Source: a bacterium (GTDB taxonomy: Bacteria; Planctomycetota; Planctomycetia; Planctomycetales; Planctomycetaceae). From it: a stretch of 64,000 bases of DNA. Below the pieces are notes generated by a model, which saw only the letters and a list, made by a program, of their open reading frames with translations, ran no database searches and was not told the origin of the DNA. Position numbers and translations under genes: made by a program. The stretch is taken from positions 1 to 64,000 of the forward strand of contig WGME01000025.1 in assembly GCA_016125225.1 (NCBI GenBank), in the 5' to 3' direction. Shown here piece by piece: positions 3,179 through 22,517 of the stretch; position 1 is the stretch's first letter; the number at the start of each line of letters is the position of its first letter.

Positions 3179-4276
3179 TCATTTTTTCCGCGTCGCCTTC
3201 TTGCGAGGTTTTGCTAGAGTTTTCGCTTCCAAGGCAGGCCCGGCCGCCTGTTGCTCCGCCAGTGCATAGAATTCGTGGAGTTTGGCTTGCAGCAATCGCT
3301 TGTCGGGCAGTTGGGTCTGATACTGGGCGACAAGAGCCGGGGAGATCGACCGGCTCAAGGCGTATTCCACCACTTCGTGATTTTTCGTCGCGCACAGCAA
3401 TACCCCGATCGACGGTCCTTCATGGGGCTTTTTGACGTCGCGATCGAGGGCTTCCAGATAGAACTCCAATTTGCCCAAGTGTTCCGGCTCGAATTCCACC
3501 ACCTTGAGTTCAATGGCCACCAAGCTGTTGAGGGCTCGGTTGAAAAACAGCAAGTCCACGAAGAAATCCTTACCGCCAACCTGGACCGGATGTTGACTCC
3601 CGATGTAACAGAAATCCTGGCCCAATTCGATCAGGAACTGTTTGAGCTGTTCTACCAAACCACGTTGCAGATCGCTCTCGGAGTGGTGAGCGGGCAATTC
3701 CAGGAATTCGACCAAGTAGCTATCCTTGAAGACCGAAGCGGCGTCGGGATGCAGTTCTCTCAGCGGCGGCGAGAGATTCGCAGGAGCCAGGACCACCCTC
3801 TCGAACAAGGCTCCCGCAAATTGGCGTTCCAGTTCCCGGCTCGTCCATTTCTGCTCACAGGCCATCCGCAGGTAGAATTCGCGCTCTTCGTCCCGTTTCG
3901 ACTTGCTCAGAATCAGCAAGTTATGGGTCCACGATAATTCTCTCAGCAGTGCTGAGAGTTTTGGTTGACTGCGATAGGTCTCATAAAACTGCCGCATGCG
4001 CCAGAGGTTTTGCGGCGAGTAGCCTCTCAGGGCGGGGTAGCGCCGCTGGATCGTCTCGGAGAGGGTTTCCACGGTTCCCTTGCCCCAACCCTCCTCGGCA
4101 ATTTTGTGGCTGATATGCAGGCCGATGTTCCAATAGAGTTCGATCAGGACGGAGTTGACCGTCGTCGTGACCCGGACCCGCGCGGCCTCGATCAATTGGA
4201 TCACCGCGTCAAAGTCGGATTGGGCTGACGAAATCTGGGTAATCGAGCGGCCGGTCTGTTTCGCGGTTTTCTTCAT
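3179..4276 (-). CDS. DUF1016 / YhcG-type PDDEXK nuclease-domain protein
   Basis: This 365-residue protein matches the YhcG/DUF1016 family in length and layout. The N-terminal DUF1016 helical half has YWNIGLHISHKI, RYPALRGYSPQNLWRMRQFY and LSWTHNLLIL (residues about 45-125). The C-terminal half is a PDDEXK-like nuclease fold with DFFVDLLFFNRALNSLVAIELK (about 240-262), where the D...E-x-K spacing is visible. A basic tail ends KPRKKATRKK. Family members are linked to mobile elements and suspected DNA processing or defence, but the substrate is unknown. It ends 18 bases from the stop of the oppositely oriented integrase relic. No strong ribosome site precedes the ATG. Confidence 0.8.
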   Translation of the reverse strand: MKKTAKQTGRSITQISSAQSDFDAVIQLIEAARVRVTTTVNSVLIELYWNIGLHISHKIAEEGWGKGTVETLSETIQRRYPALRGYSPQNLWRMRQFYETYRSQPKLSALLRELSWTHNLLILSKSKRDEEREFYLRMACEQKWTSRELERQFAGALFERVVLAPANLSPPLRELHPDAASVFKDSYLVEFLELPAHHSESDLQRGLVEQLKQFLIELGQDFCYIGSQHPVQVGGKDFFVDLLFFNRALNSLVAIELKVVEFEPEHLGKLEFYLEALDRDVKKPHEGPSIGVLLCATKNHEVVEYALSRSISPALVAQYQTQLPDKRLLQAKLHEFYALAEQQAAGPALEAKTLAKPRKKATRKK

Positions 4277-5188: not shown

Positions 5189-6103
5189 TCATTGCCACGG
5201 CCCGGATGGACGCCAGGTCAAGGCGAACTCCTGGCCCGTAGCGAGTGCTGCTGCCAGTGGTCCCAAGAACTGCCCGAGAGCCTCGACAACCACCGGGAAG
5301 TCAGCGGGTGCGATCGCCAGTCGCGACTTTCGCACGAATCCCTTCCACTGCGTCTGCTTGATCGGATCGTTCGCGAAGGCGGCAGTCAGCGCGATCGGCA
5401 CCGCACTCATGGCGGTTCTGCGATTCTCAAATGTCCGTGCGATTGCTTCAGACAACAACCGGCCGTCGAATTCAAACTGCCGTGACAAGAGCCACAGATC
5501 GAAGAAGTCCTTCAGACGGCTGTTGAGTTGCCCGAGCTTGACCATCGCCTCGAACTTCTCGGCGACCACGGTCTCCTTCGGGTACGCGCGAAGTCGAGGT
5601 TGGGCGTGGTCCAAAATGGCCGGGTAGTCGGCGAACGCGGCATCGGGCACGACCGTGTCTCCGAAACCGATGTCGATCTGCATGGGAACACGAGCATTTT
5701 CCAGGGACGCCTGAAAGGTGACTCGCACACCCGAGTAGTCCGCGTCTTCCTTGATGGTTTGCCCTGCCACGGTCTCGACAGCGAACACCAATCCATCCGG
5801 CTCGACCGCGAGCTGACAGACATCGCGGAACACTGGAACGAGGGCGTCCACGCTGTTGTTGAGTCGCCCCAGCAGGTCAATGTCGCGTGTCGGACGAGAT
5901 GACGGCGCTCCCCAAAGGTTGAACAGGAGCGCTCCTTTGAGGATGAACCGCTCGGCATGTGGCGACTGCGACAGACGGTACAGGAATCTCTCCATCGCGA
6001 AGTATTGGAGCACTTCCTGAAAGGGACGCCCCGAGGCTACGGCCGAATTCATCAGCCGCTGGCGAACTGAGGCTGCGACGTTTTTGAGAGGCCGCTCGGT
6101 CAC
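5189..6103 (-). CDS. AbiEii/AbiGii-type nucleotidyltransferase toxin
   Basis: 304 residues, typical for AbiEii toxins. Motifs: FILKGALLFNLW (about 53-64) followed by RPTRDIDLLG with the nucleotidyltransferase DxD, MQIDIGFGD (third acidic residue) and YPKETVVAEKFEAMV plus RLKDFFDLWLL, the conserved AbiEii helical segment. The family comprises toxins of the type IV AbiE toxin-antitoxin and abortive-infection systems that inhibit growth by nucleotidyl transfer. It overlaps the upstream antitoxin gene by 4 bases (ATGA), so the two are translationally coupled. No damage seen. Confidence 0.9.
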   Translation of the reverse strand: MTERPLKNVAASVRQRLMNSAVASGRPFQEVLQYFAMERFLYRLSQSPHAERFILKGALLFNLWGAPSSRPTRDIDLLGRLNNSVDALVPVFRDVCQLAVEPDGLVFAVETVAGQTIKEDADYSGVRVTFQASLENARVPMQIDIGFGDTVVPDAAFADYPAILDHAQPRLRAYPKETVVAEKFEAMVKLGQLNSRLKDFFDLWLLSRQFEFDGRLLSEAIARTFENRRTAMSAVPIALTAAFANDPIKQTQWKGFVRKSRLAIAPADFPVVVEALGQFLGPLAAALATGQEFALTWRPSGPWQ

Positions 6104-6726
6104 AGCACGGACTCCAGATAAGGCTGGATGACGCGCTTCACCCGACAGATTTCCGCGTAATAAAGGAGTGACTCGACGTTGACGCGGCCCTGGTGGCGGT
6201 ATGCCTTGAGCGCTTCCAGGACGGTGTCGAGGCCGATTCGATTCCTGTGCTTGAAGCAGTCTGCCAGCGTTTTCTCGCGGCTGTAGATGCGAACGGGGAC
6301 TCCATCGACCGCGTGCGTTTCGATTCCTTCCGAATAGGCGGGGCCGCTGAACCAGAAATGCCGCACCGGCGGATAGGACAGTCGCGGCGGCTCCGCCCCT
6401 CGGGGAATGGCGACGCAGATTTCGTGTGGGATCTGGGTGGTGAGTTCGTGCCAGGCGAGCGCCGAGATCAGGCAGAGCACGCCGTTGGGAATCTTGAGAG
6501 CGACGGTGACCAGGTCCGGGTTGCCAAGCGACGGAGCGTCCGCGAGTCGGTACAGCCCCCGGCTGAGCAGTTCGATCCGGCCAGAATCGCGGAGGGCGTA
6601 CAGAGTCCGGGGATGGATTCCGGCCTCCAGAGCATCGCGAGTGCGGAGCATCCCCCCGTGGGCGCGGAAATGGTCCAGCGCCGCCGTGATCGGCCGGGGT
6701 TCTTCGGGAGGGTGTTCGACGCTCAT
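6100..6726 (-). CDS. AbiEi-type antitoxin / autoregulator
   Basis: 208 residues. The N-terminal winged-helix segment (GGMLRTRDALEAGIHPRTLYALRDSGRIELLSRGLYRLA) is the standard AbiEi DNA-binding domain; the C-terminal part contains REKTLADCFKHRNRIGLD and the usual end of the family. It lies upstream of and overlaps the toxin gene by 4 bases. AbiEi proteins neutralise AbiEii and repress their own operon. A TATATT sits just before the start (about 6732-6738), so the leader would be very short. Confidence 0.9.
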   Translation of the reverse strand: MSVEHPPEEPRPITAALDHFRAHGGMLRTRDALEAGIHPRTLYALRDSGRIELLSRGLYRLADAPSLGNPDLVTVALKIPNGVLCLISALAWHELTTQIPHEICVAIPRGAEPPRLSYPPVRHFWFSGPAYSEGIETHAVDGVPVRIYSREKTLADCFKHRNRIGLDTVLEALKAYRHQGRVNVESLLYYAEICRVKRVIQPYLESVL

Positions 6727-6995
6727 GTGGATAAATATACCAGCACGGCGTGGCGTGTGCCAGTTTTTCTATCCAGGCGAGTCAGGTTGGTAGAAGGCCA
6801 ACACGGATGGGGGCTCGGCTTCCGAATGCCACGATGGACGGTGGCGGCAAGGCCATGCGGCAAAACCGCTACAGCCGGACTGGAGATCGTGAGGGCCAAC
6901 TCCCCGTAGGGCAGGCTGGGCTTCCCAGCGGCGGCCAGCGGGGTGCAAAAATGAGATCGCCCCTCATTTTCCCGCGATTTACCGAGTCTACCACG

Positions 6996-8072
6996 ATGAA
7001 GAACCTGTTTCAGCCCCTGTTGTTGCTGATCGCCGGCGCGACTCAGAAAGAGCTGGCCCGGCAGGTCCGTTACCTCAAGGTTGAGAACGAAATCCTGCGA
7101 AGCAAGCTGCCCGCCAGGGTCTTCGTGACCGAGAAGGAAAAGAACCGGCTGGCGAAGTTTGCGGCAAAGCTCGGGTCGGCGATCAACGAGCTTGTGTCGA
7201 TTGTGCATCCGGAAACACTTCGCCGGTGGATTCGGGCGCTGAATCAGACAGTCAAGAAGAAGCTCGCCAAACGGGGCCGTCCCAAAACGGAAGCTGAGAT
7301 CCGCGACCTGATTCTGAAACTCGCCCGCGAGAACGATTGGGGTTACACCCGGATCATGGGGGAGTTGAAGAAACTCGGCATCACACCGCCGTCACGCAAC
7401 ACGATCAAGAACATCCTCAAGGAGCACGGTCTCGATCCAGGTCCGAAGCGTAGCGAGGGGACCTGGGACGAGTTCCTGACGCAGCACGCCAAGACGCTCT
7501 GGCAGTGTGACTTCTACGCCAAGAGTGCTTTGACCATGAAGGGGTTTCGGGATTTGTACGTGCTGGTGTTTCTGCACGTGGACACCCGGCGCGTATGGAT
7601 TTCCCCTTCGACGTTCCATCCCGATGAAACGTGGGTAAAACAGCAGGCGGTCGCGTTCCTGGAACATGCAAAGCAGATAGAACTGCCGCCCAAACTGCTG
7701 ATGCACGACCGGGACACGAAGTTTACGAAAGCATTTGATGCGATCTTCAGCGCGGCGGGCGCGGAAGGGAAACAGACGGCGTTTCGGGCACCGAACACCA
7801 ACGCCTACGTCGAGCGGTTCATCCAGACATTGCAGCAGGAGGCTCTCGATCACTTCGTCGTGTTCGGTGAGCAGCACATGGACCATCTGGTGTCAGAAAC
7901 CGTCGAGCATTACCACGAGGAAAGGCCGCATCAGTCGTTGGGAAATGAGCCACCGGCGAATCGCCAGACGACGGAAACCACCGGCAGCGACACCGACGAG
8001 ACCAAGTTGCGGATCGTCTGCGGCGAACGTCTGGGCGGGCGGCTCAAGCACTATTCTTTGAGGGCGGCGTAG
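6996..8072 (+). mobile_element. IS transposase (integrase-core DDE, IS3/IS481-like)
   Basis: A 358-residue protein from ATG 6996. An N-terminal HTH region is followed by [29 protein letters not shown], then an rve/DDE core with WQCDFYAK (first D), LMHDRDTKF (second D) and [14 protein letters not shown] (E); it ends with [12 protein letters not shown], typical of this group. The catalytic triad is intact. The open frame upstream of 6996 to 6750 is probably not coding. I could not identify terminal inverted repeats or target duplications, so the IS borders are open. A short inverted repeat AAAATGAG...CTCATTTT lies just upstream (about 6951-6970). Confidence 0.8.
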
Positions 8073-8280: not shown

Positions 8281-8730
8281 CTATGACCACCACTTCCGTA
8301 TTCTCTGCCAGAATGTTGGCGTCGGAGTAGGCTTGCCGAACGCCAAATGGTCATGCTCGTCCATTTTGGTTTGTTCTTGGTCGAGCGAATCGAAGTACCT
8401 CGATTTCGCTGCGGCGTCATATCCCCGACCGGCGGCGATTTGCGCTGCCGACCAATGTGGAGCCCACCGAATGTGATTGTGCCTGATCCAGTAGTGCGAC
8501 TGACACGGAAAGCTCCAGTTGCCAATCGACGGTTCCAGCGAAACGGATCTGCCGTCGAAAATCAACTTCCAATCCGTCGGAGACAGCGGCGTGACGACTT
8601 CACGGCCGCAGCCGCAACAACAACTGTGGGCAGCAGTCGCGTACTGCATCGAGACGTAGAGGACGCCTCGCGCCAGATCGTCGGGGATAAACTCGACAAA
8701 CTCTGGGCGTAGGGAAGCGATTCGCGTCAT
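8281..8730 (-). CDS. DUF6527 family protein of the ubiquitin-like operon
   Basis: 149 residues with the family signature: HSCCCGCGREVVTPLSP at about 34-50, WKLIFDG, then GNWSFPCQSHYWI at about 70-82. The Cys/His pattern suggests a bound zinc ion. The gene is last in a minus-strand operon and overlaps the E1-like gene by 4 bases (ATGA). DUF6527 proteins occur beside bacterial ubiquitin-like operons; from memory a peptidase role has been proposed for such members in 'Bub' systems, but I am not certain of it. Here it is the only candidate processing or ligase-like partner, as no JAB peptidase or E2 is visible. The function is inferred from context. Confidence 0.8.
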   Translation of the reverse strand: MTRIASLRPEFVEFIPDDLARGVLYVSMQYATAAHSCCCGCGREVVTPLSPTDWKLIFDGRSVSLEPSIGNWSFPCQSHYWIRHNHIRWAPHWSAAQIAAGRGYDAAAKSRYFDSLDQEQTKMDEHDHLAFGKPTPTPTFWQRIRKWWS

Positions 8731-9911
8731 GGTTGCTCTGCATTCGTGAGTCGGTTGCCATCGATCGTGTAGGTGCTGAAATGCTCCCGTTCAAAGTCCA
8801 TGTAGAATCCGCAGCGCTTTTTCCACTTGATCACGGCCAGTGCCGCATTGAGAGCGTTTAGGTCCGCGATCTGGATATTTTTGGAGTATTCATCATCAAC
8901 GGTCCCACCCGAAAAGGGAATTCGCTGGCGTTCCCAAACGTGGTCGCGCTTTTCCGGGGTGCTGGTGGTCGTACGCAGAATTCCGATCAGCGATGTGTCG
9001 ACCAACTCGATCCCCATGCCGACGTCGATGAACGATTTGCCCCATTGCTCCAATTGCTTGACGATGTCGCGCTTCGGCTGATTGCGGTCCAGACAGAGAA
9101 AGACAAAATCCATTTCTCGCAACAGATCGACATTGGACGCATCGATATAGACATCGTGCGGGAAGATATGCCGGTGCATTTTGGAATACTGCTGGTGGAA
9201 GTAATTCACCTTGCGGGGATTCGAGCGCAGCTCGTTCAGAGTGGGTGCGCCGGGAGAGCGAAATGCGTTGTGGTTGGAATAGACATCTCCGTCAAAGATG
9301 TGGATCTGCTTGACCGGCGTTTTCGCTACGAGATCCAGGACGTACGAGCCGGTCCCGCCGAGACCGACGATTGCGAGTTTGGAGAGTTCAAGTTTGCTGG
9401 TGACCAGGTTGATTCCGGCGCGACTGGATGCAGTGTCGAAATAACAAAACACCGACTCTTCCTCGCTCGCTTCGACAGGCGGGAAAGTTTTGGCCGTGAC
9501 GTTCGGATCGATAGCCTGGGCCGGGCTGCTGAGAATGGCCACGTAGGTGGTCATTTTCTCGTAGTAGCTCGGATAGCCACCCGCCTTGGGTTTGCTTGAA
9601 AACGAGTGCTGGACGACCACACCGTCGGCCAAGGTTTGAGCCTGGCTGCCGTGCCGAATCTGGGCGATTTCAGTCCCGTCCTGATGACAGGGATGATCGC
9701 CGGAAAAGAATGCGACATGAGTTCCGGGCGTGGTGGTGGCGTCACCGGCCAGACTCAGTTCGGAGACCAGAGTGCCGAATTGAACCTGCCGACTCGCGTT
9801 GACGTACGGGACCGGGTGAATCAGCAGGTAGTTGCCTTTCACCTGGACCCCGAAACCTTCGTCGCGAAGCCGCTTCAGATCGGCACTACGACTTATCAGT
9901 TGCTGTGACAT
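8727..9911 (-). CDS. E1-like ThiF-family adenylyltransferase with DUF6791-like N-terminus
   Basis: 394 residues. Residues 1-145 look like the DUF6791 domain found in front of ThiF domains (GNYLLIHPVPYVN, THVAFFSGDHPCHQDG). Residues about 160-350 are the ThiF/E1 Rossmann fold: LAIVGLGGTGSYVLDLVA (nucleotide loop), HIFDGDVYSNHNAFRSPGAP (D...N...R adenylation residues) and VFLCLDRNQPKRDIV. It should adenylate the C-terminus of a ubiquitin-like partner. I see no cysteine in the crossover region (LRTTTSTPEKRDHVWERQ is Thr/Ser-rich), where canonical E1 enzymes carry the thioester Cys; remaining Cys residues lie in a beta strand and at KKRCGF. Its start overlaps the Ubl gene by 26 bases and its stop overlaps DUF6527 by 4. 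Confidence 0.85.
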   Translation of the reverse strand: MSQQLISRSADLKRLRDEGFGVQVKGNYLLIHPVPYVNASRQVQFGTLVSELSLAGDATTTPGTHVAFFSGDHPCHQDGTEIAQIRHGSQAQTLADGVVVQHSFSSKPKAGGYPSYYEKMTTYVAILSSPAQAIDPNVTAKTFPPVEASEEESVFCYFDTASSRAGINLVTSKLELSKLAIVGLGGTGSYVLDLVAKTPVKQIHIFDGDVYSNHNAFRSPGAPTLNELRSNPRKVNYFHQQYSKMHRHIFPHDVYIDASNVDLLREMDFVFLCLDRNQPKRDIVKQLEQWGKSFIDVGMGIELVDTSLIGILRTTTSTPEKRDHVWERQRIPFSGGTVDDEYSKNIQIADLNALNAALAVIKWKKRCGFYMDFEREHFSTYTIDGNRLTNAEQP

Positions 9912-10152
9912 TGAAGATCATTCCGTTCTCGATGGTGACCGATCCACCGGCGACGAGCGTGCCTTCGTTGTGACCCTTCCGGTACGTGATCGTGAAGATC
10001 GTGTCCGGTCCGGTCGGCAGCCCTGAGAGCGCGGCGATGGAGTCAAAGGTTTGAACTTCGTCAGCGACCTTCTTAGGTCGGCCGTTGACGATGATGTTGA
10101 AGTCGTGGTCCTTGTTGGGACCGCCCGGATTGCCGTGTTGTTCGTTGCTCAT
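9886..10152 (-). CDS. Multiubiquitin-family ubiquitin-like protein (single beta-grasp unit)
   Basis: 88 residues resembling one repeat of the bacterial multiubiquitin family: DFNIIVNGRPKKV, FDSIAALSG, DTIFTITYRKGH, TLVAGGSVTIENGMIFNV. A short acidic/Gly-rich leader (residues 1-15) precedes the beta-grasp fold. Only one domain is present, whereas many relatives have several. The C-terminus ends TATDKS, not Gly-Gly. An AAGGTG ribosome site precedes the ATG. It lies 61 bases after the DUF2188 gene and its last 26 bases encode the start of the E1-like protein, so E1 translation should depend on it. It is the probable modifier protein of the operon. Confidence 0.85.
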   Translation of the reverse strand: MSNEQHGNPGGPNKDHDFNIIVNGRPKKVADEVQTFDSIAALSGLPTGPDTIFTITYRKGHNEGTLVAGGSVTIENGMIFNVTATDKS

Positions 10153-10213
10153 AGTTCACCTTGTTGGTTGGGGGTTAAATCAAAACGCTTGGCGTCCTTT
10201 CGGGATCGCTATC

Positions 10214-10447
10214 TCAGTGCTTGGCGTCCTTCGGCGGGCAGGAGTCATTGCCGTAGCTGTCCTTGTCACGGATCTGGCCATTGGGCCGATGGATGACAAG
10301 CTCGCTCTGATTGGCCTGGGCAAGTCGCCGCCCTGCCTGCGCCGCCGCCCCTTGGGTCAGATGGGTCGATGCCGGCTGGGCACTGCCTTCCGGTTTGACT
10401 GCCCAACGGTTGCCGCTGGGGACGATGTGGATGTTTCGCTTGGACAT
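10214..10447 (-). CDS. DUF2188-like small protein, first gene of the ubiquitin-like operon
   Basis: 77 residues: NIHIVPSGNRWAVKPEG followed by THLTQGAAAQAGRRLAQ and ELVIHRPNGQIRDKDSYG is the DUF2188 pattern (a small beta-alpha-beta fold with an invariant W). A clear AAGGAG ribosome site lies about 9 bases upstream of the ATG. It is the first gene of the minus-strand run into Ubl, E1 and DUF6527. DUF2188 has no defined activity; co-transcription with the Ubl is inferred from spacing and orientation. It could be a substrate, an adaptor or a regulator. Confidence 0.75.
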   Translation of the reverse strand: MSKRNIHIVPSGNRWAVKPEGSAQPASTHLTQGAAAQAGRRLAQANQSELVIHRPNGQIRDKDSYGNDSCPPKDAKH

Positions 10448-10597: not shown

Positions 10598-10810
10598 ATG
10601 GCCAACAAGCGAACGATGACGTTGAACCTGACCGACGCGGAAATGGACGCGTTGGAAAAATTGTCCGAGCGCAAGGATCTCTCGAAGACAGCAGTCCTCC
10701 GCCAGGCGTTGCGGCTCTATCAGGCCGTAGACGCACGCATTGAGCGCGGCGAAAAGCTGTTCTTTGAAGACGAGGCGAAGAAGGAAAAGGCGGAGGTGAT
10801 GGTGCTGTGA
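10598..10810 (+). CDS. Ribbon-helix-helix (CopG-like) regulator / possible antitoxin
   Basis: 70 residues: MTLNLTDAEMDALEKLSERKDLSKTAVLRQAL is a standard ribbon-helix-helix DNA-binding domain (strand, helix A, helix B), followed by a charged tail rich in Glu and Lys. It has a strong ribosome site and promoter, and its stop overlaps the next start (GTGA). RHH proteins paired with GNAT proteins are usually antitoxins that also repress the operon, so that is the likely role. It is divergent from the ubiquitin-like operon. Confidence 0.8.
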   Translation: MANKRTMTLNLTDAEMDALEKLSERKDLSKTAVLRQALRLYQAVDARIERGEKLFFEDEAKKEKAEVMVL

Positions 10811-11439
10811 GCAGTTTCCCGATTCAGATTCAACTTCGAGAGAGTCGCACAGATGTAGATGCGAGTCTCTTGGACGGGATGGCACCGCAGGACTTGCTCG
10901 TCGTGGAAAGCGAGTGGAGCGCGGAGCGATCGCTGGTTGTCCAGGAGCTACTTCGCAATGGAGTCGATCGAGCGAAATGGCCTCAGAGTGTGCACTGGAA
11001 CTGGGCCAAGAAAGCACCGATGTTGGGGATGCTTGAATCGAGTGGCTTCGGCTTGGTCTGTGAGAACCGGTGGCAGGGAGTCATGATGACCAAGACCGCC
11101 AGTGCATTTGCTCGGCTCGCCGCCGACAAAGGCAAGCCGCTGGTGTACCTCGATTTTCTTGAAGTCGCCCCGTGGAACTGGGCGATTCCGGAACTTGGCC
11201 GCAGTGGCCGGTTTCGTTTGATTGGTTCCACGCTGTTCTGGAGAGCAGTGCAACAAAGCAATGAGGAGGGTTTCCACGGGAGAGTCGGCCTTCACGCTTT
11301 GCCTCAAGCGGAGTCGTTTTACGAGCAAGGTTGCGGCATGACGGCGCTTGGCCGGGATGCCGCGAAACAAAACCTTCTCTATTTCGAATTGTCGCGGCAG
11401 AGCGCTGAGAGGTACTTGCAAACAGGAGACAATACATGA
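10807..11439 (+). CDS. GNAT-like acetyltransferase, possible toxin
   Basis: 210 residues from a GTG overlapping the RHH stop. The C-terminal third (about 150-195) carries the GNAT signature end: GRVGLHALPQAESFYEQGCGMTALGRD, and the centre (PLVYLDFLEVAPWNW...) matches the acceptor/acetyl-CoA core seen in small GNAT proteins. The R/Q-x-x-G-x-G/A loop is weak (PELGRSGRFRLIGSTLFW). RHH-GNAT gene pairs of this kind include TacT/AtaT-type toxins that acetylate aminoacyl-tRNA. This protein is longer than TacT (~160) and could equally be a housekeeping-type transferase. It overlaps the following XRE gene by 4 bases (ATGA). Confidence 0.7.
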   Translation: MSSFPIQIQLRESRTDVDASLLDGMAPQDLLVVESEWSAERSLVVQELLRNGVDRAKWPQSVHWNWAKKAPMLGMLESSGFGLVCENRWQGVMMTKTASAFARLAADKGKPLVYLDFLEVAPWNWAIPELGRSGRFRLIGSTLFWRAVQQSNEEGFHGRVGLHALPQAESFYEQGCGMTALGRDAAKQNLLYFELSRQSAERYLQTGDNT

Positions 11440-11921
11440 ACAACAAGAAAGGAACCGGGCCTGATCGTGATCTATTGCTGCGGATGGGGGAATTCGAAGA
11501 TTCTTGCCATTCGATTTCCGTCGGCGGAATGGCGGCGGACTTGGGAATGCTCCCGACAACTCACGGCGACGCGCAGCGCGTGTTTGGGAGGTTGATTGAG
11601 TTTGCTCGACGGAAGAAGAGTCTAAGTGTCGAGCAGTTGGCCGAACGTGCGAACGTGGATCTTTCGGAGATTGTCGAAATCGAAATGGATGAGGCGATCA
11701 TTCCGGAAGTCCGCACGGTATTCCAACTGGCGACCGTCCTGGATCTTCCCTCGGCTCGTCTGATGGAAGTAGCGGGACTTGCGACGCCGCGTCCTGAAGT
11801 GAGTCATGCCGCGTTGAAGTTCGCTGCACGATCGGAGCCGACGGCGAAACTCACTCGGGAGGAGCGAGACGCGTTAGAGGAGTTCGTGAAGGTGCTGATT
11901 GAGTCTACAGACGGGGACTGA
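11436..11921 (+). CDS. XRE-family helix-turn-helix protein
   Basis: 161 residues. Residues about 48-105 (FGRLIEFARRKKSLSVEQLAERANVDLSEIVEIE...) form a typical Cro/C1 helix-turn-helix. An N-terminal 45-residue extension and a C-terminal helical segment (LTREERDALEEFVKVL) flank it. It is translationally coupled to the GNAT gene and is third in an RHH-GNAT-XRE cassette. A regulatory role is inferred from the fold; whether it controls this cassette or the divergent ubiquitin-like operon cannot be told from sequence. Confidence 0.75.
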   Translation: MNNKKGTGPDRDLLLRMGEFEDSCHSISVGGMAADLGMLPTTHGDAQRVFGRLIEFARRKKSLSVEQLAERANVDLSEIVEIEMDEAIIPEVRTVFQLATVLDLPSARLMEVAGLATPRPEVSHAALKFAARSEPTAKLTREERDALEEFVKVLIESTDGD

Positions 11922-17161: not shown

Positions 17162-17406
17162 AACCAAGCCCCTCTGACGTACCAATCGAACTAGACGACA
17201 ACTATTGAACTTGATTGCAACTCCTCATAGCAATTCTGGTCGCACATCTTTAGATTCCCGTAAGTATATCTACCGGCGCTCTGTGGGCTGCTGGGGCGCG
17301 AATACGGTTGAAGGTCAAATGGATGATTATCCTACAGGCCCGGTTGCCCCATCCGCTTTCGCTGCCGTATCTTCGAGGGAGATCGATCACCACCGAAGAG
17401 CAACCC

Positions 17407-18039
17407 ATGTGCGGCCGTTTCAATCTCCGTCTGACACCTGCCGAGCTGGAAGAATTCTTCCGCGTGCTCGATGCCCCTGAGATGGGCTTCCGCTACAACA
17501 TCGCCCCCACTCAGCAGATCCTCACAATCATGGTTCGCGATGGTCGACCGACGTGGCAGGTCGCTCCCTGGGGCTTCCATCCGAAATGGGCGAAGTCGAA
17601 ATCGCAGGTCCTCATCAACGCCCGATCGGAAACCGTGTTCGAGACCCGGACGTTCTCCAGGTCAATCCGTGAACGCCGCTGTTTGGTGCCGGCCTCGGGT
17701 TTCTACGAATGGCAGACGATCGGCAGAGAAAAGCATCCATACCACATCACGTTGAAGTCTGGCGAACCGCTGACGTTTGCTGGCATGTTTGACTCTGAAG
17801 GGTCAATCGCCCTGATGACCACCGGCCCGAATGCCGAGATGGCCACGATTCACGATCGTATGCCGGTTGTGCTCCCGCGTCCTGTCTGGGATCACTATCT
17901 TGACCCGGCTGTGACCGATGAAGCGGAAATCGCCCCACTCCTGATCCCACTGCCCGATGATTCGCTGACACTGACCGCTGTCAGCAAGACGGTCAATAAT
18001 GCCCGGTATGATTCGCCAGAGTGTATTCAGACGCAATAG
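17407..18039 (+). CDS. SOS response-associated peptidase (SRAP/HMCES, YedK-like)
   Basis: 210 residues from ATG 17407, the only start that puts the catalytic Cys at position 2 (MCGRFN), as the family requires. Other SRAP landmarks: RYNIAPTQQ (Asn), LVPASGFYEW (Glu) and MATIHDRMPVVL (His). The enzyme forms a DNA-protein crosslink with abasic sites in single-stranded DNA and protects replication forks. Phages and mobile elements often carry it. The C-terminus ends VNNARYDSPECIQTQ as usual. No clear LexA box seen upstream. Confidence 0.95.
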   Translation: MCGRFNLRLTPAELEEFFRVLDAPEMGFRYNIAPTQQILTIMVRDGRPTWQVAPWGFHPKWAKSKSQVLINARSETVFETRTFSRSIRERRCLVPASGFYEWQTIGREKHPYHITLKSGEPLTFAGMFDSEGSIALMTTGPNAEMATIHDRMPVVLPRPVWDHYLDPAVTDEAEIAPLLIPLPDDSLTLTAVSKTVNNARYDSPECIQTQ

Positions 18040-20996: not shown

Positions 20997-22517
20997 ATGG
21001 CTCATTCAGACGAATTCCACCCCGAGATGGTGATCGGCTTGGTAAGCGCAGTTGGCACTGATAATTGGCGTGTAATTCGCATTCTAAGTGATGCACTTGG
21101 GCGTGCTGGCTATGATGTTAATCCTACAAAGATCTCGAAAGACGTAATTCCGATAGTCGTTGACGTGTCAACTGTGCCAATCGATTACACTAAGCGAGTT
21201 AGTTTTCTTATGGATAAAGGAAATGAGGCTCGCACGCAGTCAAGCGATGACGGAATTCTTGCGTATGGGGCTGCTGCCCGAATTTTTGCATCTCGCACAA
21301 AGGATGCTCGAGGCATTCCTCAACCGCGTTCAAAAACCGTCCAGGTGATAGACTCATTGAAACGGCCTGAGGAAGTTGCAGTTCTCAGGCAAGTCTATGG
21401 TTCTGGTTTCGTGTTGATAGGTGTTCATGAAGAAGGCGTCCGTCGACGCAAACATCTTGCAGAAAAAGGGGTGTCTGAGCCAGATATAGACAATTTGATC
21501 GAAAGGGATGCAGAGGAGAAGAGGGAGCCCCACGGCCAGCGCGTAAACAAGACGTTTCACTTAGCAGATTTTTTCGTGAAGATCGAAGACAGTGAAGATC
21601 AGCTTAATTGTGATGTGTGGCGAATTGTGAAACTAATGTTCGGCGATCCATTTGTTACACCAACATTTGACGAGTTCTCGATGTTCATGGCATTTTCTGC
21701 CGCACTCCGGTCCGCAGATTTGTCTCGCCAAGTTGGGGCTGTTGTGACAATCAACGATCAGATTCTAGCGACAGGGGCGAATGATTGCCCGCGTCGAGGT
21801 GGTGGACTTTATTGGGCATATCGCAATACCAGCACCCACTGTGTGGAGGACGAGCCAAATGGGCGTGACTACAAAAGAGATGATGGTGATTCGAATCGAG
21901 CAGAACAGATCAAGCTGATTAAGCAGATAGCAGACGCAGGGGAAAAGAGGGGCATACAGAAGGCCACATTGATTGAAGTCTTGGAGGAGAGCAGTATTGG
22001 AGATCTGACAGAATATGGTCGCGTAGTTCACGCTGAGATGGAGGCCTTGTTGAGTTGTGCTCGTAACGGCGCCTCTACGGTTGGAACCACTCTCTTCTGC
22101 ACGACGTTTCCGTGCCACAACTGCGCGAAGCACATAATTGCGGCCGGGGTAAGCAGGGTGGTATACGTCGAGCCCTACCCAAAGAGCAAGGCGATTCAAT
22201 TCCATGACGATTCTATTCGCAAATCTGAAGACGAATCTGTGCTGGAACCCCCAAAAGTACGATTCGAGCCGTTCGTAGGGATTGGTCCGAGGAAGTTTTT
22301 TGACCTTTTCTCTATGGAACTTGGCGCGAACTATTCGATTATACGAAAGGACGGCAAAACAGGGTTGCCGACGAAGTGGGATATCCAGACTGCCCGGTTA
22401 CGGATACAAGCCAACCCGAGTTCTTACTTGGAACTTGAAGCGGAAGCCTGTAAGCTCTTCCCCACCACACGAGATGCTGCGGCGTGGGAGTCTGAGACCG
22501 AAGGGACGAGGTCATGA
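20997..22517 (+). CDS. AvcD/DcdV-type antiphage dCTP (deoxycytidylate) deaminase
   Basis: 506 residues with the two-domain AvcD/DcdV build. N-terminal nucleoside-kinase-like domain starts with a glycine loop (GLVSAVGTDNWRV, about 14-26) and includes EEVAVLRQVYGSGFVLIGVHEE. The C-terminal cytidine/dCMP deaminase domain has RQVGAVV, VVHAEMEALL (HAE zinc and catalytic motif, about 344) and TTFPCHNCAKHII (PCxxC, about 372). Such enzymes drain dCTP/dCMP to dUTP/dUMP on phage infection. The DNA is visibly more AT-rich than the flanking genes, as in recently acquired cargo. A 4-base overlap (ATGA) couples it to a small downstream ORF. Confidence 0.9.
   Translation: MAHSDEFHPEMVIGLVSAVGTDNWRVIRILSDALGRAGYDVNPTKISKDVIPIVVDVSTVPIDYTKRVSFLMDKGNEARTQSSDDGILAYGAAARIFASRTKDARGIPQPRSKTVQVIDSLKRPEEVAVLRQVYGSGFVLIGVHEEGVRRRKHLAEKGVSEPDIDNLIERDAEEKREPHGQRVNKTFHLADFFVKIEDSEDQLNCDVWRIVKLMFGDPFVTPTFDEFSMFMAFSAALRSADLSRQVGAVVTINDQILATGANDCPRRGGGLYWAYRNTSTHCVEDEPNGRDYKRDDGDSNRAEQIKLIKQIADAGEKRGIQKATLIEVLEESSIGDLTEYGRVVHAEMEALLSCARNGASTVGTTLFCTTFPCHNCAKHIIAAGVSRVVYVEPYPKSKAIQFHDDSIRKSEDESVLEPPKVRFEPFVGIGPRKFFDLFSMELGANYSIIRKDGKTGLPTKWDIQTARLRIQANPSSYLELEAEACKLFPTTRDAAAWESETEGTRS

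Follow-up and report, generated by a model that had tools for sequence, protein, structure and literature searches.

A Planctomycete Ubiquitin-like Operon of the Type 6e/Bub Lineage with a Predicted E2 Fold on Its E1 Protein

Introduction

It has been suggested that eukaryotic ubiquitin signalling has its forerunners in bacterial ubiquitin-like (Ubl) systems. Here, we analyze one such system, encoded by an operon at positions 8281-10447 of a 64,000-nucleotide stretch of planctomycete DNA (contig WGME01000025.1 of assembly GCA_016125225.1, positions 1 to 64,000), hereafter called the window. Its closest described relatives are the type 6e "domain X" operons and the Bub operons. In the passages of the original survey that treat type 6e (Iyer, Burroughs, and Aravind 2006, PMC1779556), the domain X operons likewise encode a Ubl (there of one to three domains), an E1 with an N-terminal domain replacing JAB, and a metal-binding protein Y, exemplified by sll6052 of Synechocystis. 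Those passages leave domain X unassigned, guess at a JAB-like role for it and do not recognize it as an E2 fold; DUF2188, a family encoded in the window operon, is absent from them.

The Bub operons, represented by the Citrobacter BubB/BubCD proteins (PDB 9eae) and by the layout of Synechocystis pSYSX, have in common with the window operon a Multi_ubiq Ubl, an E1, an E2-fold partner (predicted in the window), DUF6527, and, in part, the kinds of divergent regulators. The pSYSX operon consists of Ubl, Prok-E2_E, Prok-JAB-ThiF, and DUF6527 genes, with divergent helix-turn-helix (HTH) and ImmA/IrrE genes, and sll6052 is taken to be its DUF6527 gene. Operons of Oscillatoria, Pontibacter, Klebsiella, and Methylomagnum are built of Ubl, E2, ThiF, and DUF6527 parts, and in several of them Ubl and E2 form a fusion. 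In the classic Bub form, Prok-E2_E is separate or fused to the Ubl and lacks a conserved cysteine, and JAB is found on or beside the E1. The window form, in contrast, has its predicted E2 fold on the E1, keeps a cysteine there, and has no JAB. Bil (bacterial ISG15-like) systems also carry out Ubl conjugation in bacteria, but their operons have separate E2 and JAB genes, which are absent from the window operon. Cap2 of CBASS acts on a CD-NTase rather than on a beta-grasp Ubl, and its system includes a JAB-kind deconjugase, Cap3. As predicted for the window protein, Cap2 bears an E2-like domain fused ahead of the E1 adenylation domain (PMC12355090).

The window operon belongs to the type 6e/Bub lineage and is of the domain X form: it encodes a Multi_ubiq Ubl, an E1 domain in the next gene, and DUF6527, which corresponds to protein Y. 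Structural modeling further suggests that its domain X, DUF6791, is a hidden E2 fold.

Three Conserved Genes and an Optional Accessory

The operon comprises four open reading frames on the minus strand. The first encodes a 77-aa DUF2188 protein (10214-10447; PF09954, 8e-21; PADLOC PDC-S16, 6e-29) and the second an 88-aa Multi_ubiq Ubl with a single beta-grasp domain (9886-10152; PF14452, 4e-13, above the cut-off), ending in NVTATDKS. The third (8727-9911) encodes a 394-aa E1 protein in which DUF6791 (PF20590, 6e-61) is joined to a ThiF domain (PF00899, 1e-11) and which matches NCBIfam PRK06153.1-4 (2e-179). The last gene encodes a Cys/His-rich DUF6527 protein of 149 aa (8281-8730; PF20137, 8e-26). 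The Ubl and E1 genes share 26 nt (9886-9911), which code for both the C-terminus of the Ubl and the N-terminus of the E1 protein, and the E1 and DUF6527 genes share 4 nt (8727-8730). A gap of 61 nt separates the DUF2188 gene from the Ubl gene, so that the overlaps involve only three of the four genes. A preliminary description, made from the sequence alone, had reported four minus-strand genes with overlaps of 26 and 4 bases and had named the families DUF2188, multiubiquitin-type Ubl, E1-like ThiF, and DUF6527. Its coordinates and both overlaps are exact, and the Pfam matches agree with its families. Its suggestion of a minimal or divergent set gives way to a different picture, as the operon is a widespread three-gene form that the 2006 survey had already included in type 6e as its domain X subset.

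Homologs of the E1 protein were identified in 115 plasmid records, in GTDB genomes (at least 545 candidate stretches), and on five IMG/VR contigs; none was found in phage records. We retained the best 80 of the at least 545 GTDB stretches; conservation was counted over 92 loci and linkage over 74 non-redundant loci. Titles among these best 80 name Planctomycetes (Phycisphaerae), cyanobacteria, Nitrospirae, Bacteroidetes, Acidobacteria, Chloroflexi, Actinobacteria, Proteobacteria, and one "uncultured archaeon". The system is present in 2 of 392 genomes of the window's phylum, including the window's own, and is therefore sporadic there.

The overlap between the Ubl and E1 genes measures 26 nt in 91 of the 92 loci, across phyla, and 23 nt in the remaining one, and DUF6527 comes next after the E1 in nearly all of them. 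The recurrence of this gene order, together with the exact length of the overlap, indicates that the arrangement is not due to chance. As the genes next downstream are mostly unrelated between loci, the operon ends after DUF6527. All 92 Ubls terminate with serine, mostly in the form NVTxTDKS or NVTRTVQS. In our reading, the Ubl stop codon, which lies in the overlap, probably helps to restrict residue 8 of the E1 protein to Ser or Asn. An overlap kept to the base across phyla, with both protein ends constrained, stands out as a strong example of dual coding. We also weighed a Ubl-E1 fusion produced by frameshifting in this region but rejected it, because the two coding constraints account for the overlap.

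In L066, L005, L008, L009, L070, and others, a multi-domain Ubl is often preceded by a gene for a UvrD-helicase-like protein of 1100-1150 aa and by smaller genes, which suggests a larger form of the system. A copy of the Klebsiella plasmid operon, 84% identical, occurs in 3 of 5,426 complete Escherichia coli genomes, and in E. coli ES2 (L098) the operon is located between fimH and an integrase gene adjoining tRNA-Leu. The existence of homologs in E. coli strains makes laboratory tests easy.

The DUF2188 gene is found upstream of the Ubl gene in eight non-redundant loci (the window, L019, L020, L021, L030, L044, L046, and L057) and downstream in one (L056), that is, in 9 of the 74 and in several phyla. 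Explaining its presence on the E1 tree takes six changes, four of which are forced by supported branches. The operon copy is the sole DUF2188 of the window genome and the family turned up in just 1 of 20 relatives, which makes chance adjacency unlikely. The preliminary description had proposed a survey of DUF2188 beside multiubiquitin genes and held that a lack of conserved linkage to Ubl-E1-DUF6527 would count against it; the linkage proves to be real. It had also counted DUF2188 as part of the short set, which holds for the linkage but not as a rule, the gene being optional and missing from 65 of the 74 loci. PADLOC carries the family as a candidate, under the PDC-S16 name given above. We found no relative of DUF2188 in the PDB, and a literature search returned no functional paper on it.

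In L015, L018, L027, L028, and L080, the DUF2188 slot is occupied by a conserved basic protein of 57-60 aa (GDGxRxGAV...RSQT...PFKGVRKE); the frame is longer in L080, and the L015 copy has no Pfam match. As this protein is unrelated to DUF2188 and sits in the same slot, DUF2188 is likely one of several accessory proteins. It could instead be a passenger gene, carried by the common promoter and standing outside the system, in keeping with its absence from most loci and with the other small genes in its slot. We regard this as rather doubtful, because a family so rare among the relatives recurs in nine loci of several phyla and changed at least four times along the tree. We take DUF2188 to be a real but optional accessory.

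A Predicted E2 Fold Fused to the E1 Domain

DUF6791 covers residues 10-160 of the E1 protein (9432-9884, minus strand). An AlphaFold model of residues 1-165, built from an alignment of 68 sequences with those of the plasmid records left out, reached a pLDDT of 89.2. Among 992 chains aligned with VIA-align, the best was Citrobacter BubB (9eae_C; Z 9.1, 120 residues, 3.6 A), a member of the Prok-E2_E family according to a search with the Synechocystis protein of that family. E2 or UEV domains fill the rest of the top 50, with Z from 5.5 to 4.2. Judged from this model, DUF6791 appears to have an E2 (UBC) fold; a profile search of the PDB with DUF6791 found no E2. The preliminary description saw no E2-like gene nearby and held that an E2 or JAB domain inside one of the four proteins would count against its proposal. 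The model places a predicted E2 fold at the N-terminus of the E1 protein itself, and Pfam detects neither a JAB nor a RING domain within any of the four. The assignment of an E2 fold with a conserved cysteine is new for domain X; it may already be in print.

Cys75 is the sole near-invariant cysteine of the E1 protein (90 of 92 sequences), and His65 is invariant (92/92). Among the other cysteines, just C273 is frequent (64 of 92); it lies next to invariant D275 in the adenylation core. An H-x9-C spacing is typical of catalytic UBC/E2 enzymes, and His65-x9-Cys75 (9687-9719, minus strand) is a candidate E2 active site. A competing view, which parallels an earlier one of type 6e E2-like proteins, is that DUF6791 is a non-catalytic adaptor with an E2 fold (RWD/UEV-like). 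Cys75 would then be structural, and the Ubl would go from the adenylate to its target directly or via a hydroxyl group. Across 14 sequences, Prok-E2_E, the closest structural family, does not conserve any cysteine, and the best non-Bub matches include the UEV domain of TSG101, which is non-catalytic; two loci, moreover, do without Cys75. However, the conservation of this cysteine and of His65, at catalytic-type spacing and in many phyla, exceeds the needs of a scaffold and makes an adaptor unlikely.

Adenylation Domain, Ubl Tail, and DUF6527

The ThiF/E1 adenylation domain (residues 171-298; 9018-9401, minus strand) displays the motifs G183-x-GGTG and D207-x-D209 together with R218, K234, and D275. 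Residues G183, G185, G186, G188, D207, D209, R218, K234, and D275 are invariant in the 92 sequences, and T187 is present in 88. The MoeB residues Gly41, Arg73, Lys86, and Asp130 named in a review (PMC12355090) can, in our own mapping, be placed on these motifs. As the E1 part lacks a conserved catalytic cysteine of its own, direct transfer from the adenylate to Cys75 would be the simplest reading. Further matches of the adenylation domain are ThiF, TcdA, and MccB, as would be expected of a sulfur-carrier or peptide-modifying pathway of the ThiS-ThiF or MccB style rather than of protein conjugation. Such a pathway is very improbable: in profile searches, Citrobacter BubCD is the closest solved relative (1.4e-9), no rhodanese or pathway genes are found, the Ubl has no Gly-Gly, and the E1 is fused to a domain with a predicted E2 fold.

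The window Ubl aligns with the C-terminal domain of PDB 9cd2 ("ZDHYS365 multi-ubiquitin domain protein") through the last residue. Both end in TDKS, but the 9cd2 chain has 222 residues and the window protein is a single 88-aa domain. Classic Ubls end differently, with TTEG in cyanobacteria and TTEGGAE in Celeribacter, or are fused to E2. These tails and fusions suggest that processing by JAB would matter in classic operons and not here. Single-seed profiles detected neither JAB nor Prok-E2_E in any of the 74 non-redundant loci, and Prok-E2_E (PF14462) had no match in the window genome, control genomes likewise giving none. The preliminary description was right that no JAB gene is nearby; DUF6791 occupies the place of JAB, and the single Prok-JAB match of the genome lies on another contig. 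The 2006 suggestion that domain X, from this position before the E1, substitutes for the peptidase and processes the Ubl is scarcely credible, given the modeled E2 fold, the lack of a Pfam JAB match, and a Ubl tail constant in 92 loci that needs no trimming.

For DUF6527, the window form and the classic operons share P16, C37, C41, W54, P67, S68, C76, and H79. These include a metal-like set, C-x3-C ... C-x2-H, and an invariant serine, with S68 and H79 invariant in both types of operon. The protein Y signature in the 2006 passages on type 6e reads C-x3-C-x35-38-H-x2-C (PMC1779556). RefSeq labels a truncated E. coli homolog "ubiquitination-like system serine protease family protein". From the shared residues and this label, our best guess is that DUF6527 is a deconjugating protease, similar to BubE. 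An oxyester mechanism and a serine protease, BubE, belong to the background on Bub; we use both as leads only.

Divergent Regulators

Three genes on the plus strand diverge from the operon: a ribbon-helix-helix regulator (10598-10810; PF01402, 3e-5), a 210-aa protein with a weak likeness to GNAT (10807-11439; Acetyltransf_10, E 0.12), and an HTH regulator (11436-11921; PF12844, 5e-8). They are 75%, 43%, and 42% identical, respectively, to their Methylomagnum counterparts, and their order matches that of the block before the classic Methylomagnum operon (L104). The same block fronts a fused operon in Ensifer (L040). Among 139 upstream genes scanned in 64 loci, Pfam recognizes 34 Peptidase_M78 genes and about 20 with HTH domains, in the pattern of CapH+CapP. 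An iterated M78 profile gave 51 of 74 loci; this figure was set aside as probably over-inclusive and the Pfam count was kept. CapH+CapP pairs are described as damage-responsive switches of Bub operons, and 219 of 544 Bub operons have CapW or CapH+CapP (PMC13373217, 2026). Checked for regulators of the CapH+CapP, CapW, or CapK+CapS type, the window shows the three genes of the Methylomagnum block, and no M78 gene was found in it.

Proposed Mechanism

These data lead us to conclude that the operon probably encodes a Ubl conjugation system of the type 6e/Bub lineage with E1 and E2 on one polypeptide. In such a system, the ThiF domain would adenylate the C-terminal serine of the Ubl, and Cys75 of the fused E2 fold would take the Ubl directly from the adenylate and then pass it to a target. 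A JAB would be superfluous, as all the Ubl genes already stop at one and the same residue. DUF6527 might act as a metal-stabilized serine protease that cleaves off the modifier or resolves stalled intermediates. DUF2188, as an optional accessory, would at best guess be a target, an adaptor, or a sensor, and the divergent DNA-binding regulators may hold the operon off until stress. More tentatively, all these features may be combined into a one-polypeptide cascade. Here, an E1 without a catalytic cysteine of its own would load the cysteine of the fused E2 from the adenylate of a Ser-ending Ubl, DUF6527 would be a new type of eraser protease, and DUF2188 a dedicated target or adaptor gained several times.

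Several observations weigh against a conjugation system of this kind. Foldseek alone gave no significant match for the DUF6791 model (best Atg3, E 0.16), and the hhalign comparison of DUF6791 with the Prok-E2_E profile was not significant either (E 0.18); the E2 assignment therefore rests on one model and one aligner. Cys75 is absent from 2 of 92 sequences, and the Ubl terminates with Ser and not Gly. DUF6527, despite a confident model (pLDDT 93.7), had no PDB relative by profile and no fold match with Foldseek or VIA-align. Its protease role stems from a database name and conservation, and its Cys/His set equally fits a plain zinc domain. The M78 gene that comes next in Methylomagnum was not found in the window, where the following 0.9 kb holds no long same-strand open frame. 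The system has no known conjugate, target, or phage phenotype, and Bub itself is reported not to have been shown to protect against phage (PMC13373217); a role in defense would be hypothetical.

If a cysteine E2 is indeed fused to the E1, one protein and a small Ubl would offer one of the simplest conjugation cascades for study. The form would also be intermediate between Bub, whose E2 family has no conserved cysteine, and the cysteine-dependent E2s. The repeated association with DUF2188 provides a testable handle on targets.

Neighboring Genes

Downstream of the operon, Pfam and PADLOC identify AbiEi/AbiEii (5189-6726) and a DUF1016/YhcG nuclease of the PDDEXK type (3179-4276), which make up a defense-like island, the one with AbiE and DUF1016 noted in the preliminary description. 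A transposase-like gene, rve_3 (6750-8072, plus strand), is located between AbiE and the operon. No CD-NTase match was obtained among the operon genes or scanned neighbors, and AbiEii is the sole nucleotidyltransferase found nearby. In the Adhaeribacter plasmid locus L006, genes for PDDEXK nucleases flank the operon on both sides (550-1566 and 6631-7704), and the window likewise has its PDDEXK nuclease gene nearby. Farther along the plus strand of the window are genes for an SOS-response-associated peptidase (SRAP; 17308-18039) and for a deaminase-domain protein (dCMP_cyt_deam_1/MafB19-deam; 20997-22517).

The same genome carries a second ubiquitin-like system on another contig (C29, about 25.8-26.2 kb; L114, 1432-3357, minus strand). 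Its protein has a ThiF-like middle and a C-terminal Prok-JAB domain, measures 641 aa in the stretch examined within an open frame of 827 aa, and looks like a type 6a E2-E1-JAB fusion.

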